Shown: positions 1,578 through 58,048 of the stretch, in pieces
How positions within the stretch are numbered: position 1 is the first letter of the stretch
How the letters are laid out: the number at the start of each line of letters is the position of its first letter
NCBI GenBank assembly: GCA_009693115.1
Contig: SHXW01000001.1
Coordinates: 1 to 64,000, forward strand
DNA length: 64,000 bases
Reading direction: 5' to 3'
Source: Dehalococcoidia bacterium
Lineage (GTDB): Bacteria > Chloroflexota > Dehalococcoidia > Lucifugimonadales > Lucifugimonadaceae
Notes under the pieces: generated by a model
The model's input: only the letters and a program-made list of their open reading frames with translations
Database searches by the model: none
Told to the model about the DNA's origin: nothing
Translations under genes and position numbers: made by a program

Positions 1578-1774
1578 CCAGCGGTGGCGCTTTCAACTTT
1601 CCTGCCCTGCCACATTGCCAGTCGGGGCATGGCATACTCACGCGAAGGTGTCGCTATGAGCAGAACCCCGATAGATCGGGAATCTGCCCGGCCGACTTCA
1701 AACATCGGGGCCGGGTCTGCCCGCACCACGCGGACGGCCCGGCCCTGATGTTTGTTTTGAGGGCAAGAGCTTCA

Positions 1775-1812
1775 ACCCTCACCCCGGCCCTCTCCCTCTC
1801 AGAGGGAGGGGA
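1775..1812. repeat. Short palindromic repeat, CCCTCTCCC family
   Basis: GC-rich imperfect palindrome CCCTCTCCCTCTCAGAGGGAGGGG preceded by CAACCCTCACCCCGGC, between the binding-protein stop and the DppB start. It may act as an mRNA stabiliser or attenuator within the operon. Similar palindromes occur near 3945, 12331, 44071, 50072 and 52964. Confidence 0.6.
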
Positions 1813-1819
1813 TTTGCAT

Positions 1820-5050: not shown

Positions 5051-5415
5051 GTGGTCAGTCTCTCCCTGATGGATGTGTCGTTCTGAGTGAAGTGAAGGAC
5101 CCTGTTTCGCCGTCCCGGTCTGATCCGTGTCATGTGCCTATCGGGTTAGCTCCGCTCCGTCGTCCCGGTCCCGATGAAGTCTGGAAAGGGACGTGGGGTG
5201 GGCGAAGTTCTGAATTCAACGAACCCCTCCCAAGATTCCTCTCCCGACTTCATCGGGACCGGAATGACGGGTTGCTGAGGCAGCCCGATAGGCCAACCGT
5301 GTCATTCCGTCCAGCCATGTCATTTCAAGTGGAGCGAGGACTCTCTTTCCGTAGCTTCAACCCTTGCCCTGAACCCTCTCGCGCCCAAGGGGCACCCGAG
5401 GGAGAAGGGGAGTCC
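5051..5415. repeat. Intergenic repeat cluster between two aldo/keto reductases
   Basis: No gene seen. A long inverted repeat joins CCCGGTCCCGATGAAGTC (within 5161-5181) to GACTTCATCGGGACCGG (from 5246), separated by 64 bp. A second repeat type, with core AGTGGAGCGAGGA, lies at 5319-5344 and recurs near 61641. A degraded CCCTCTC palindrome follows near 5380-5412. Repeats flanked by duplicated genes may mark recombination. Confidence 0.6.
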
Positions 5416-7778: not shown

Positions 7779-9362
7779 TCACGCTATCCCAGGGCGCATC
7801 TCGCCGATATGAGTCGACTGTTCGTATGCGTGAGCGATCTGCAGCACTGGCAGGTCCTGCCGCGGCCCGCCGACGATCTGCAGGCCCACAGGCAGTCCAC
7901 TGGTTCTTCCCGTCACAGCCGGTTCTTTCAAGAGACTTCTCGCTCTGGGTGCGGGTGTGGGACGCTTCGCTTTGAGGGGACCCGTGAAACCCGCTGGAAC
8001 GGAAATCGCCGGGAACCCAGTCACTGAAATGGCATAGCAGATGGCGAACCAGTCGATGTATGTTTTCAACTTCACGCCATTGATCTCGGTCACATACTCC
8101 TGATCGACGGGGAATGGCGGCACGCTCGTCGTGGGCAGCACGAGGAAGTCATACTTCTCAAAAAAGCTCACTGCCCGTTCGTAGAGCCTGGTGCGCTTCT
8201 CCTCTGCCCGCGCCATATCCAGCGCAGATAGTTTCAACCCCTGCTCTGTGTTCCAGACGACCGTCTGCTTCATCAGGTCCCGGTGTTCACTCAGGTGTCG
8301 TTCGTGCTGTTGGGCGAAGGCGTAGGCTCGGTACACTTGGAATATTTCGTCGGCGTCTGACAGGTCCGGGCTGGCGTCCTCGACCTCACACCCGAGCGAT
8401 TCGAATACCTTCCTCTGCCCATCCACAACGCTCGTCACCGCCGGGTCTATCGGATACCGGCCCAGATCCCGCGACCATGCGATTCTCGTTCTCCTGCGAC
8501 GGCGCGCACCCCGAACCTGGCGAAGTACGTCTACCGGACGTCCAGCTTGCGCATCCCACTCCATCCTTTGAGCGAACATCGTCGGGTCATCATCAAATGA
8601 CACAGGTGCAGCGCTGTCCGGGCCGGCCGCAATTGACATTTGCAGGGCCACGTCGGCCACCGTCCGCCCCATGGGTCCGTCAACGGAGAGTGAGTTCCAC
8701 CCCAGGGCATTGGGCCTGCGCGGTATCCGACCAATCGAAGGCCTGATCCCTACGACGTTGTTCCATGCTGCCGGGTTCCGCAGAGACCCGCCCAGATCCG
8801 AGCCGGTTGCCACTGGGAAAAGCCCGCACGCCAGGCCCACAGCAGAACCGCCGCTTGACCCGCCGCACGTCTTCGTCACGTCATACGGGTTCAGCGTCTT
8901 GCCAAACACCTCGTTAAACGTATGCGAACCCGCGCCGAACTCGGGCGTGTTTGTCTTGCCGATCACGATCGCGCCGGCCACCTTGTACCTCTGGACGATC
9001 AGGGAGTCATCTTCCGGCACGAAGTCTTTGTAGATGCGTGACCCGTATGTCGTCCTTATGCCCGCCGTCGCCTGCAGGTCCTTCACGCCCACCGGCAGTC
9101 CAAGCAGAGGCGACACTGATGCGCCTTTTGCTCCCCTCGAGCGAGATCTGGGAGAGCCGCCCTGAACTCCAACCTTGTCAAGTGCCTCCGCCTGCTTCAA
9201 CGCACTCTCAGTGACAAGCGTGCAGACGGCGTTCACCTTGGGGTTCACACGTTCTATCTGCTCTATGTGTGCCCGCATCACTTCGATGCACGACAGCTCG
9301 CGCTCTCGTATGAGCCGCGCCAATTCCACCGCAGTCTTGAATACAAGTTCACTTGCTGCCAC
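7779..9362 (-). CDS. Amidase signature family protein with in-frame insertions
   Basis: Amidohydrolase of 527 residues hydrolysing a C-N amide bond in the cytosol; the substrate is unknown. The Ser-cisSer-Lys triad is recognisable: Lys in GLPVGVKD (about residue 94), cis-Ser in CGGSSGGSAVG (about 167-177), and the nucleophile region GSDLGGSLRNPAAW. The GTG start at 9362 lies 6 nt after the stop of the NHL gene, so the two are probably co-transcribed. Three low-complexity, basic or Pro-rich segments (residues about 64-84, 271-291 and 461-485) sit where family members normally run directly from one conserved block to the next. They look like in-frame insertions and make the protein longer than the common 460-500 residues. 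Confidence 0.9.
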   Translation of the reverse strand: MAASELVFKTAVELARLIRERELSCIEVMRAHIEQIERVNPKVNAVCTLVTESALKQAEALDKVGVQGGSPRSRSRGAKGASVSPLLGLPVGVKDLQATAGIRTTYGSRIYKDFVPEDDSLIVQRYKVAGAIVIGKTNTPEFGAGSHTFNEVFGKTLNPYDVTKTCGGSSGGSAVGLACGLFPVATGSDLGGSLRNPAAWNNVVGIRPSIGRIPRRPNALGWNSLSVDGPMGRTVADVALQMSIAAGPDSAAPVSFDDDPTMFAQRMEWDAQAGRPVDVLRQVRGARRRRRTRIAWSRDLGRYPIDPAVTSVVDGQRKVFESLGCEVEDASPDLSDADEIFQVYRAYAFAQQHERHLSEHRDLMKQTVVWNTEQGLKLSALDMARAEEKRTRLYERAVSFFEKYDFLVLPTTSVPPFPVDQEYVTEINGVKLKTYIDWFAICYAISVTGFPAISVPAGFTGPLKAKRPTPAPRARSLLKEPAVTGRTSGLPVGLQIVGGPRQDLPVLQIAHAYEQSTHIGEMRPGIA

Positions 9363-12466: not shown

Positions 12467-13513
12467 TCACACAAGCATGACTCGACTGCTATGCGCCCGG
12501 CCTACCCGCGCCGTCTCCTCTTTACCACCGGCCACCACACGAACCCCGGCGTCGATCTTCTTTGCAATATCGTCCGGCGTGGCCCCTTCCAGGAACGCCA
12601 CGCCGTTCCTACGGCACGCTGCGAAAATCTTCTCGTGCGCCCACTGCATCTCCGGCGGGTATGGGTTCCGTGGCGCGCCTCTCAAATATCCGAGCGATAG
12701 TCCCAGGTCCCCCGGCCCCATCTCCGCGTACCCGATGCCAGGCACGGCGAGTATTTCGTCGCACCTTGCCACTCCCTCCGGGCTTTCGATCTTCACGCCC
12801 AACAACAACTCGCCCCTACGGTTCAGAGGCCACGGATCGCATCGCTCGACATAATCAATGTGGTCAACGCCCCATATCGGCGCCGCCGTATCCTCCGACC
12901 CTCTACCTCTCGCCCCCACACCCAGCCACATCCGCCCGTCTGCGCGGGCCGTTAGCCCCGAGCCTTTTTGGGGAGCGCCACCTTCTGCGCGTGCTGAACC
13001 TGTCGAACCACCGCGCTTCACAGCATCTGCGCCATCAGAGTAATCCCTGTTCTCATACCGCATCCGTTCCAACGGCGACGGCAGCGACGGGTCAACCCCC
13101 GCGATGTTGATCGGATACCTGCAACACTCAACGAAAGCCCGAACCGCATCCGCCGACTCCGCCTGGCACAGCATCAACCCATGTACCCCGCGGCCAAGGA
13201 TCTGCCGCATCTGCCAGGCATTGAACCGGACACTGGCCTCATCAATAGCGTCCACTGGCAACTCGACGATGACCGCAGGCGTCCGGTGCCCCGACGCCGT
13301 TGGTCCGCCATCCACCAGGCCGCGGATGTACTCCGCCAGCCCTGCCATGTCGAACGACCCATGCTCCATGCCCACGTTTATGTAGTCCGCCCACGTCCGG
13401 GCATCCTTCCTCCCCTGCTCATACGTCAGTACATGCCCCGAATGCGGGCCCATGTAATAGATCGGCTGGTCTTGCTCCAGCAGTTCAATGGCCCGGTTAA
13501 TGCGGTGGGTCAT
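12467..13513 (-). CDS. HpcH/HpaI aldolase family protein with in-frame repeat insertion
   Basis: TIM-barrel aldolase/citrate-lyase-like enzyme, probably cleaving or forming 2-keto-3-deoxy acids with a divalent metal. I favour the ATG at 13513 (MTHRINRAIELLEQDQ, 348 residues) with AAGGGA 11 nt upstream; a GTG at 13552 is the alternative. Recognisable blocks are VELPVDAIDE, HGLMLCQAESADAVRAFVE, DPWPLNRRGELLLGVKIE, and GIGYAEMGPGDLGLSLGY carrying the GPxDL metal-site signature. About 28 residues (roughly 166-193), including GGSTGSARAEGGAPQK, interrupt the loop before AAPIWG and look like an inserted repeat. The downstream barrel remains intact, so the enzyme may still fold. Confidence 0.88.
   Translation of the reverse strand: MTHRINRAIELLEQDQPIYYMGPHSGHVLTYEQGRKDARTWADYINVGMEHGSFDMAGLAEYIRGLVDGGPTASGHRTPAVIVELPVDAIDEASVRFNAWQMRQILGRGVHGLMLCQAESADAVRAFVECCRYPINIAGVDPSLPSPLERMRYENRDYSDGADAVKRGGSTGSARAEGGAPQKGSGLTARADGRMWLGVGARGRGSEDTAAPIWGVDHIDYVERCDPWPLNRRGELLLGVKIESPEGVARCDEILAVPGIGYAEMGPGDLGLSLGYLRGAPRNPYPPEMQWAHEKIFAACRRNGVAFLEGATPDDIAKKIDAGVRVVAGGKEETARVGRAHSSRVMLV
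12935..13021. repeat. Putative in-frame repeat insertion within the HpcH gene
   Basis: About 87 bp, a multiple of three, encode a low-complexity Gly/Ala/Arg/Ser segment absent from the usual family architecture. The minus-strand DNA begins near GGTTCGACAGGTTCAGCA, which resembles dispersed short repeats of many environmental genomes. Boundaries are approximate. Confidence 0.45.
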
Positions 13514-13652
13514 GGGGACCGTTTTCCCTTCCAGATCAATTTGACTCTTCACCTGTGATCAGAATGACACGACGGCCCCCTCGGTGCGCTAGGGGCGAGC
13601 GGATGCGGCGAGAGTCCTATCTTCAAACCCTCTCTCGCTCAGTGGCTGGGAG

Positions 13653-15242
13653 TTACACGATCTCGTTCCCACCTGTGCGCTGCGGCTTGAAGCTCACTGA
13701 CTGGGCAGGGGGTTGCTCGTGCCATCCGCCATGGACGGCCCCGCCGGGGAAGATCTTTCCGGGGTTGAAGCGGGAGTGGCGGGTTTCCTGGACTCTCACA
13801 CCGGCCCGCTTTCCTTTGGCCCGTTCAGGACGTCGCCGTAAGGGTAGAGGGTACTCTTGACCCCCACCCGGCCCCTCCGCCTCTGAGGGGCTGTCCAAAA
13901 CCTGCCCGAAGGCGGGCCGGAGCCGCATCATTGCCTCAAGGTCCTCCGGCGTGAAGACCATGCCCATATACGCCTGCTTCTCGATGCCGATACCGTGCTC
14001 ACCGGATAGGGCGCCACCGGCCTCGACACATGCCTTTAGGATGCGGTGTCCTGCTGCGATCACCTTCTCCACATCCCCCGGCTTCCGCTCGTCGAACAGG
14101 ATGCACGGGTGGATGTTCCCATCCCCCGCGTGGAACACGTTCGCGATGGTCAGGCCAAGTTCGTCGCCGACGGCACGAACCGTCCGCATCACTTCTTTGA
14201 GCTTCGTACGCGGAGACACACCGTCCACCAGGTAGTAGTTCGGCGCGAGTGTGCCCATCGCCCCGATCGCGCCCTTGCGCGTCGCCCACAACTCGGCGCG
14301 TTTTGCTGCGTCCGTCGCTGCGCGGATCTCCGATGCGCTGTTGCGTCTCAAGATCGCTTCACACTGCTCCGACTCCTCAGCTACATGCTCCCGCAACCCG
14401 TCAACCTCCACGATCAGCACAGCCTCGGCGTCAGCAGGGTAGCCGGGGTGGTACACGGCCTCGCACGCCTTGATCGTCACCGCGTCCATCATTTCAAGGG
14501 CCGCGGGGATGATCCCGGCGGCGATGATGTCCGACACCGCCTGCGACGCATCGTCCATCGTTCGGAATGCGGCGAGCAGCGTCTTCACGGCCTCGGGCGC
14601 TCGCAACAGCCGGACCGCGATTTTTGTGGCGATGCCCAGCGTGCCTTCCGACCCTATGAACACACCCCGCAGGTCGTATCCAGGCCACTCCCGTGCGTCA
14701 CCTCCTAGCCACACGATGGTGCCATCCGCCAGCACGACCTCGACGCCCATGACGTGGTTCGTCGTGACGCCGTACGCCAGACAATGCGGCCCGCCAGCGT
14801 TTTCGGCCACATTTCCGCCTATGGTGCAGGCGCGCTGCGATGATGGGTCCGGCGCGTAGTAGAGGCCGTGCTTGGCGACGGCGGTGGTCAGGTCCAGGTT
14901 CACCACGCCCGGCTCGACGATGGCGACTCTGTTTTCGACGTCCACTTCCAAGATTCGGCTGAGGCGCGTCAGTGCGATGACAAGTGAGTTACGGAGAGGT
15001 ATCGCGCCGCCCGAAAGGCCCGTCCCCGCGCCGCGTGGGACGATGTCCAGTCCGTAGCGATTGGCTATGCGCACGCACTCTGCCGCCTGATCTGCGTCTC
15101 CTGGCAGCACGACCGCGCCCGGCATGGCCCTGTCGATCGAGCCGTCGTACTCGTAGAGGAGCAGATCCTCGGGCCGCCAGACGACGTATCGAGCGTCGCC
15201 CACGGCGTGCTCAAGGTCCTTTATGTACTGGGGCTTCGGCAT
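13653..15242 (-). CDS. FAD-linked oxidase, GlcD/D-lactate dehydrogenase type
   Basis: Flavoprotein of the FAD_binding_4 plus FAD-oxidase C family, oxidising an alpha-hydroxy acid such as glycolate or D-lactate. The preferred start is the ATG at 15242 (MPKPQYIKDLEHAVG, 529 residues). The N-terminal FAD domain shows VPRGAGTGLSGGAIP, GVVNLDLTTAVAKHGLYYAPDP and TIGGNVAENAGGPHC. The C-terminal domain shows NVFHAGDGNIHPCILFD and GGALSGEHGIGIEK. Between MRLRPAFG and the terminal RFNPGKIFP block, which are normally close, about 43 extra residues are inserted, and a further tail of about 35 residues follows. No GlcE or GlcF partner is adjacent, so electrons may pass through a stand-alone route. Confidence 0.92.
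   Translation of the reverse strand: MPKPQYIKDLEHAVGDARYVVWRPEDLLLYEYDGSIDRAMPGAVVLPGDADQAAECVRIANRYGLDIVPRGAGTGLSGGAIPLRNSLVIALTRLSRILEVDVENRVAIVEPGVVNLDLTTAVAKHGLYYAPDPSSQRACTIGGNVAENAGGPHCLAYGVTTNHVMGVEVVLADGTIVWLGGDAREWPGYDLRGVFIGSEGTLGIATKIAVRLLRAPEAVKTLLAAFRTMDDASQAVSDIIAAGIIPAALEMMDAVTIKACEAVYHPGYPADAEAVLIVEVDGLREHVAEESEQCEAILRRNSASEIRAATDAAKRAELWATRKGAIGAMGTLAPNYYLVDGVSPRTKLKEVMRTVRAVGDELGLTIANVFHAGDGNIHPCILFDERKPGDVEKVIAAGHRILKACVEAGGALSGEHGIGIEKQAYMGMVFTPEDLEAMMRLRPAFGQVLDSPSEAEGPGGGQEYPLPLRRRPERAKGKRAGVRVQETRHSRFNPGKIFPGGAVHGGWHEQPPAQSVSFKPQRTGGNEIV
13776..13904. repeat. Putative in-frame repeat insertion within the GlcD-like gene
   Basis: About 129 bp (43 codons) separate two family-conserved blocks near the C-terminus. 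The plus-strand sequence around 13860-13895 (CACCCGGCCCCTCCGCCTCT then GAGGGG) resembles the intergenic palindrome at 1775-1812. The encoded segment is rich in Pro, Gly and Arg. Exact ends are uncertain. Confidence 0.5.
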
Positions 15243-15537
15243 GAGTACACCCACCAGGGGGAACTAATCCATATATGGCACGCATACGGAACGATTGGTT
15301 ACCCGGGCCAGAATCCACCAGAATCCGATTGAGGTGGCTCCAAATTGTTCATCTGGCAAACAGGAGTCCTTTGTATCCCGGGCCTGCACCATCTTTAAGT
15401 TCAGCGAAGAACCTAGGGGCACTTTCGAACCCAATGTGGAGTTCTATTTCATCCAGCGCAGCCAACATACTCCCAATCAATGACTAGTTCTCGCAACTGG
15501 GTTGGTCTAGGTCATCTGTGGATTGGTTCGTTCCGTT

Positions 15538-44037: not shown

Positions 44038-44070
44038 ACAACCTGCCCGTGCTTAGCCATGCCCTAATCC

Positions 44071-44100
44071 CAACCCTCTCCCGGTGGGGGAGGGGGGTTG
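44071..44100. repeat. Palindromic repeat, CCCTCTCCC family
   Basis: CAACCCTCTCCC (44071-44082) pairs imperfectly with GGGGGAGGGGGGTTG (44086-44100), between ubiX and ubiD inside the menaquinone operon. It ends 14 nt before the ubiD start and could modulate ubiD translation. Confidence 0.55.
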
Positions 44101-50056: not shown

Positions 50057-50331
50057 CCCTGCTTGGCGGTTCCTCTCCCATAGGGAGAGGGTGTGAGGGA
50101 AAGGCCGCGATTTCCAATCCGAAGAGGTGGCATTCCCACCCTCGTCTTGAAAGCCCTGTCAGCTCCGGAATGCCGGGATCGGATGGCCCGGCGTGATCAG
50201 CGAAGTCGCATCTCCCACTGACACGACGTCATTCCGGGCATCACGAGGAACATCTTCCAGTTCTCCCGTCAGCGACTTGACACCCCCCCGGTAACATCAA
50301 GCCCTTAACCAAACGGCGATGGAGCAGGGCG
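50057..50331. other. Intergenic region with a palindromic repeat
   Basis: Directly after mqnD a perfect hairpin CCTCTCCC-ATA-GGGAGAGG lies at 50072-50090, another CCCTCTCCC-family copy. It may mark the 3' end of the operon transcript, although no T-run follows. The remainder shows no gene up to the decayed DUF3052-like gene. Confidence 0.5.
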
Positions 50332-57694: not shown

Positions 57695-58048
57695 TGGTGG
57701 AGACGGGGGAGAGTCGAACTCCCCGTCCAGAAAGGGTTCTGTGGAACGTCTACGAGCGTAGCTGGGACTTGAGTTCTCGCCGGCGAGCATACCTTTCCAG
57801 CCAGGCATCACGACGGCCAGCCGAAGTGTCTTAGGCCCGCGCTATCGGCGTCGCCGGTGCCGCACCCTGGATTAATTGCGCCCTTGCTGACCCCTCCAGG
57901 GTTGGGACCAGTAGGACGTCGCTGTCAGTTAAGCAGCGAGGGCGAGCTGTTGCTCGGGATTTTTTTGTTTTGCCACCTGATTTACGAGGGTGATGGCACC
58001 TCGGCTCGCAATCTTCCAGTCGCCTCCCTGTCGAGACCACGCGTCCCC
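57695..58048 (-). ncRNA. ssrA: Transfer-messenger RNA (tmRNA)
   Basis: Ribosome-rescue RNA of 354 nt. The 5' end GGGGACG pairs with CGTCTCC at the 3' end to form the tRNA-like acceptor stem, with discriminator A and an encoded CCA (57697-57695). A T-arm (GGGGAG TTCGACT CTCCCC) lies just inside. The tag reading frame starts at GCA 57973 and stops at TAA 57931-57929. It encodes AKQKNPEQQLALAA, ending in the protease-recognised LALAA. The smpB gene, whose product binds this RNA, lies 246 bp upstream on the same strand. Confidence 0.95.

Follow-up and report, generated by a model that had tools for sequence, protein, structure and literature searches.

Probable derivation of an in-frame segment of a glcD-type oxidase gene from short intergenic repeats in a SAR202-like Chloroflexota bacterium

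The window analysed here comprises 64,000 nucleotides (G000:C28:1-64000) of a genome of 2.02 Mb that is divided into 40 contigs and is 95.6% complete. Nearest named matches belong to Chloroflexota, including SAR202 cluster bacterium Io17-Chloro-G2, and the host is SAR202-like. The window contains a gene for a GlcD/D-lactate dehydrogenase-type FAD oxidase with an unusual segment near its C-terminal end, followed immediately downstream by a gene for an HpcH/HpaI aldolase (Table 1). A full-length tmRNA gene (57695-58048, minus strand; Rfam RF00023) and a long inverted repeat with 46-nt arms that are 80% complementary and separated by a 22 nt spacer (5157-5270) are also present.

Table 1. Repeat-related features of the window (positions are those of the window).
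Feature	Position	Strand	Remarks
GlcD/D-lactate dehydrogenase-type FAD oxidase, insertion host	13653-15254	-	PF01565 + PF02913, 533 aa
Extra 45-codon segment of glcD, RLRPAFG to FNPGKIFP	13770-13904	-	Length in same-family homologues: mostly 4 codons, 10-26 for six of them
Composite module (B in loop of A) in glcD insert	13795-13851	-	43/57 identical, ungapped, to G000:C4:79937-79995
Repeat B core GTCCTGAACGGGCCAAAGG in glcD insert	13813-13831	-	2 mismatches
Repeat A, degenerate, inside glcD insert	13858-13891	+	Arms CCCTC/GAGGGG
Second in-frame insert, in HpcH/HpaI aldolase gene (12467-13552)	12929-13093	-	~53 extra aa; boundaries approximate
Repeat B in HpcH insert, reverse orientation, TTCGACAGGTTCAGCAC	12991-13007	-	B score 37, 0/200 shuffles as good
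Repeat A, intergenic (palindrome 1775-1812 of the earlier note)	1773-1814	+	
Repeat A, best intergenic copy in window	44059-44096	+	
Repeat A copy	50071-50102	-	

Comparison of the GlcD protein with 29 homologues reveals that the sequences are collinear to RLRPAFG and that the alignment resumes at FNPGKIFPGG. Between these blocks the protein reads RLRPAFG-QVLDSPSEAEGPGGGQEYPLPLRRRPERAKGKRAGVRVQETRHSR-FNPGKIFP, whereas its relatives read RLRPAFG-AGER-FNPGKVFP or similar and named homologues have FAPENRLNPGK or FDPxGLANPGK at the corresponding stretch. The net excess over the four residues of most same-family relatives is ~41 codons, and the frame is kept. An earlier note on this DNA had placed an insertion of ~43 codons at 13776-13904; the in-frame insertion stands, with the slightly larger extent given in Table 1. 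Its limits were set by protein alignment to homologues that are at most ~74% identical, because none of the 60 relatives examined belongs to the same genus. These homologues lack the segment in repeat-rich genomes and in genomes nearly without the repeat alike, a comparison that the earlier note had proposed. Six same-family homologues (L033, L034, L036, L043, L045, and L051) have longer stretches at this site, which indicates that the site tolerates changes in length. An AlphaFold model of GlcD built with 9 sequences has pLDDT values <50 all along the C-terminus, too low to resolve the insert as a separate loop.

Two short repeats, designated repeat A and repeat B, occur in many copies in the genome. 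The consensus of repeat A is ATGCCCTCACCCTGRCCCTCTCCC-NNN-GGGAGAGGGGA, a unit of ~38 nt whose second half is a 9-bp hairpin. Pattern searching located 74 genomic sites, compared with 4 for the reversed pattern used as control. A covariance model trained on 13 copies, all of which lie outside glcD, yielded 152 genomic matches at E <=10 that correspond to ~115 sites once both strands are merged. Many copies have sharp ends: in the 49 strongest, information content is confined to ~38 nt and falls to background level just beyond. Repeat B (GTCCTGAGCNNNNCGAAGG, ~20 nt) occurs at 52 genomic sites versus 1 in the control. The two families are combined in an intergenic composite at G000:C4:79937-79995, in which a B element lies within the loop of an A element. 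Neither repeat matched a known structured RNA family when the window was searched against Rfam at gathering score, where the tmRNA was the only match.

To locate copies relative to genes, only the stretches around repeat copies were read, with genes called by a codon-usage score; 83% of the DNA sampled in this way is coding. Despite this, the located A sites lie mostly outside genes: 55 of 119 copies are intergenic, 37 overlap gene ends, and 27 fall within stop-to-stop frames, most of the latter upstream of the likely start. Placement tracks the available gap lengths (20 tandem, 9 convergent, and 6 divergent), with no preference that would support a REP-like role of repeat A at gene 3' ends, which we rejected. 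Of the frames read through A copies, 78% are open, against 73% for ordinary intergenic DNA. The idea that repeat A is specially stop-free is therefore unsupported, and the keeping of frame by inserted copies is best understood as survivorship.

Resemblance between the glcD insert and these repeats was found in several ways. Applied to the 64-kb window, the covariance model of repeat A identified the degenerate copy at 13858-13891 with E = 0.018 and weakly touched 13790-13832. The composite module aligns to the intergenic composite with a score of 49 (z = 11.8), and none of 1000 dinucleotide shuffles scored above 33, although this result is not blind, as the composite was spotted by eye after the pattern search. 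More independent support comes from the pre-built A model and from the rank of the match: among 15,000 windows covering 462 kb of the genome, the top non-self match of the intergenic composite is the glcD insert, followed by a window with a score of 42. Matches to single copies of A (6 of 200 shuffles as good) and of B (3 of 200) are moderate, as expected of an old, worn insertion, and a BLAST search of the insert against its own genome found nothing else of significance (lowest E 0.4). The insert is too degenerate for such a search, so that the profile and the composite were needed. The earlier note had compared the insert with the palindrome at 1775-1812. This palindrome is a real A copy, but its score of 30, reached by 1 of 1000 shuffles, is too weak to serve as the main evidence and falls below that of the composite. 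It is the composite match that carries the case for the glcD insert as probably repeat-derived. Rather than a single palindrome, the insert is a patchwork in which a B copy is combined with two or more A-like stretches, and it is an old, worn example of its kind. The broader claim of the earlier note, that an intergenic repeat lies within the gene with the frame kept, is borne out by the composite match, the A model match, and the homologues without the segment.

One alternative is that the segment represents ordinary, lineage-specific loop expansion at a tolerant site and resembles the repeats by chance in GC-rich DNA. The moderate strength of the single-repeat matches agrees with such an origin, as do the six homologues whose other, longer loops contain no A or B matches. 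The ungapped 57-nt match, however, exceeds all 1000 shuffles and is the best among the 15,000 genomic windows, the A model match is independent of it, and a B core is present that the control predicts at a rate of 1 per genome. Moreover, nearly intact copies of these repeats are present in the in-frame inserts of other genes. Loop expansion is already disfavoured by these results, and we regard it as quite improbable.

Several other genes of this genome contain comparable inserts. The extra residues of the HpcH/HpaI aldolase are missing from the homologues of 14 of 14 relatives compared. In glycerol kinase (C20:14731-16425), a first insert with B and a second with A are both missing from family relatives and from PDB homologues. 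Longer glycerol kinase loops of relatives, which like the longer GlcD loops were considered as further repeat inserts, contain no A or B match, and both candidates were rejected. An enzyme of the enolase superfamily (C34:4431-5759) contains a nearly perfect A copy in a loop, where homologues define the insert. A homologue-defined, in-frame insert holding B is present in lysyl-tRNA synthetase (L088:334-2112, equal to G000:C4:45639-47417), and homologues likewise define an insert in argininosuccinate lyase (ArgH) with a weaker A-like match (1 of 200 shuffles as good). Sequence inspection combined with Pfam places A in mid-protein in an MFS transporter (C5:44855-46366) and B in frame in a second amidase (G000:C26:7404-9047) and in RecO; NudC is a B case by inspection. 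Judged from sequence, the argininosuccinate lyase, RecO, second amidase, and MFS transporter probably carry in-frame A or B inserts. All of these genes except those for GlcD and HpcH were picked because they hold repeats, so that they establish recurrence and give no rate.

Other regions show related oddities. The amidase encoded at 7779-9362 (minus strand) has odd extra segments near 9105-9182 and 7899-7985, neither with a significant A or B match; at the same sites the second amidase is also extended, there with B and A-like matches. A possible second insert in lysyl-tRNA synthetase consists of ~45 further residues ahead of the OB-fold domain. One open frame (L170:468-2429; G000:C13:6167-8128) joins two short-chain dehydrogenase domains, each of which is normally a whole protein, and a copy of repeat A lies at their junction. 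Another (L134:987-3038; G000:C38:57490-59541), which is transketolase-like, contains successive A-derived peptides (SPRQGE, MPSPWEGEGQGAG). A PDB search with the latter protein returned no match at 1e-60, and the case was therefore left out of the count.

The genes that contain inserts could instead be decaying pseudogenes that have remained open by chance. The inserts do score poorly for codons, with a local score of -9 in the B stretch of GlcD, and the functions of the proteins are predictions. Against decay, the 533-aa frame of GlcD is free of stops and frame shifts, its conserved FNPGKIFPGGAVHG tail is still in frame beyond the insert, and core genes, namely those for lysyl-tRNA synthetase, RecO, and argininosuccinate lyase, contain inserts with their domains intact. 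Decay is thus a very improbable explanation, and the GlcD protein is presumably made and active.

Repeat A is not confined to this genome. It was found in 34 of 60 relatives and in 93 of 201 genomes sampled from the phylum. No A match was found in family members with small genomes of 0.7-1.5 Mb (G004-G007, G014-G017, G024-G027, and G033-G035), and most larger genomes hold from a few to >100 matches. Among repeat copies sampled in other genomes, two lie in frame within longer coding frames of single-contig assemblies: one in an HsdM-like gene of G041, where codon scores mark the flanks as clearly coding, and one in an Idh/MocA-like gene of G029, where flanking codon scores are weaker; both gene names come from sequence inspection rather than family search. 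An artefact of assembly or binning, to which a metagenome-assembled genome split into 40 contigs might be prone, is extremely improbable given flanks that are collinear and in frame with homologues across many separate genes and contigs and the comparable inserts in the single-contig genomes.

Known repeat systems provide precedents. Rickettsia palindromic elements (RPEs) are palindromic repeats of many copies and several families per genome, some of which lie in frame within conserved protein genes (PMC10969869, PMC2229807). Their length is ~105-150 bp, their terminal repeats span 12 bp, and almost half of the R. conorii copies are in ORFs. Repeats A and B resemble RPEs in that several families in one genome form in-frame inserts in conserved protein genes, behaviour that the earlier note had likened to RPEs and that recurs in several other genes of the genome and in two relatives. 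They differ in size and structure, with 38 nt and a 9-bp hairpin for A and ~20 nt for B compared with ~105-150 bp and ~12-bp terminal inverted repeats. In addition, A and B copies are mostly intergenic, their inserts are mosaics, and the host belongs to Chloroflexota. Our analysis thus argues for describing A and B as working like RPEs and not as being RPEs. Reviews also mention in-frame gene fusions of ERIC, Correia, and Yersinia repeats (PMC10969869, PMC2229807), and ERIC/IRU, Correia/NEMIS, and YPAL are short, mostly intergenic, MITE-like repeats with occasional in-frame gene fusions (PMC2229807). A and B share this distribution but are much shorter than these elements of ~100-200 bp, several of which have TA ends and target duplications. 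REP elements are mostly intergenic palindromes of 20-40 bp present in many copies (PMC3733652). Repeat A is likewise an imperfect palindrome in this size range with many, mainly intergenic copies; however, its consensus has no GTAG/CGTC tag, its copies are not concentrated at the 3' ends of genes, and no RAYT-type Y1 transposase accompanies it. Searches for Y1_Tnp (PF01797), which were positive in control genomes, returned 0 matches in this 95.6% complete genome and likewise 0 in the copy-rich relatives G009, G018, G028, G029, G036, G041, and G046; a RAYT/Y1 transposase as the mover of A and B was therefore rejected. No candidate transposase was found in these genomes.

Taken together, the in-frame insertion, its repeat match, the recurrence in other genes and relatives, and many sharp-ended copies are observed. 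The glcD segment is very probably a degenerate, multi-part, in-frame insertion of short intergenic repeats A and B, tolerated because this stretch varies in length among homologues, with the same families present in several other conserved genes. The repeats would have entered beyond the last core helix and ahead of the conserved FNPGK(I/V)FP motif. They are most likely non-autonomous mobile or copy-prone hairpin elements whose landing sites are largely random. Gene-breaking insertions would mostly be purged, and in-frame copies in tolerant loops would survive and then slowly lose similarity, with selection acting as a filter. This reading departs from the earlier description of a 'protein-compatible mobile repeat' as regards protein compatibility; mobility is suggested by copy number, sharp ends, and homologues without the insert. 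Among the located A sites, several fall well inside genes and most lie outside them. A further proposal is that unrelated families of short intergenic repeats in Chloroflexota share transposase-independent copying (e.g. hairpin-dependent, at replication forks). Such copying would plant in-frame peptides again and again at the same loop positions, in unrelated as well as paralogous enzymes, so that proteins of the phylum would be varied steadily by repeat-derived peptides. We consider this speculative and rather unlikely.

Given the precedents of RPEs and ERIC, the A/B case is not a new kind of behaviour. Our literature search of open-licence full texts turned up no account of it for SAR202 or for any other Chloroflexota. 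Rickettsia, whose members live inside cells, has been described as unusually rich in in-frame repeat insertions in conserved genes. That a SAR202-like member of the Chloroflexota does the same with different repeats, even in the gene for lysyl-tRNA synthetase, suggests that the behaviour reflects the spread of short repeats combined with selection for frame and is not a speciality of Rickettsia. For annotators and structure modellers, odd segments of 20-50 aa in such genomes can be repeat-derived, and the presence of repeat A in 93 of 201 phylum genomes makes the effect widely measurable.
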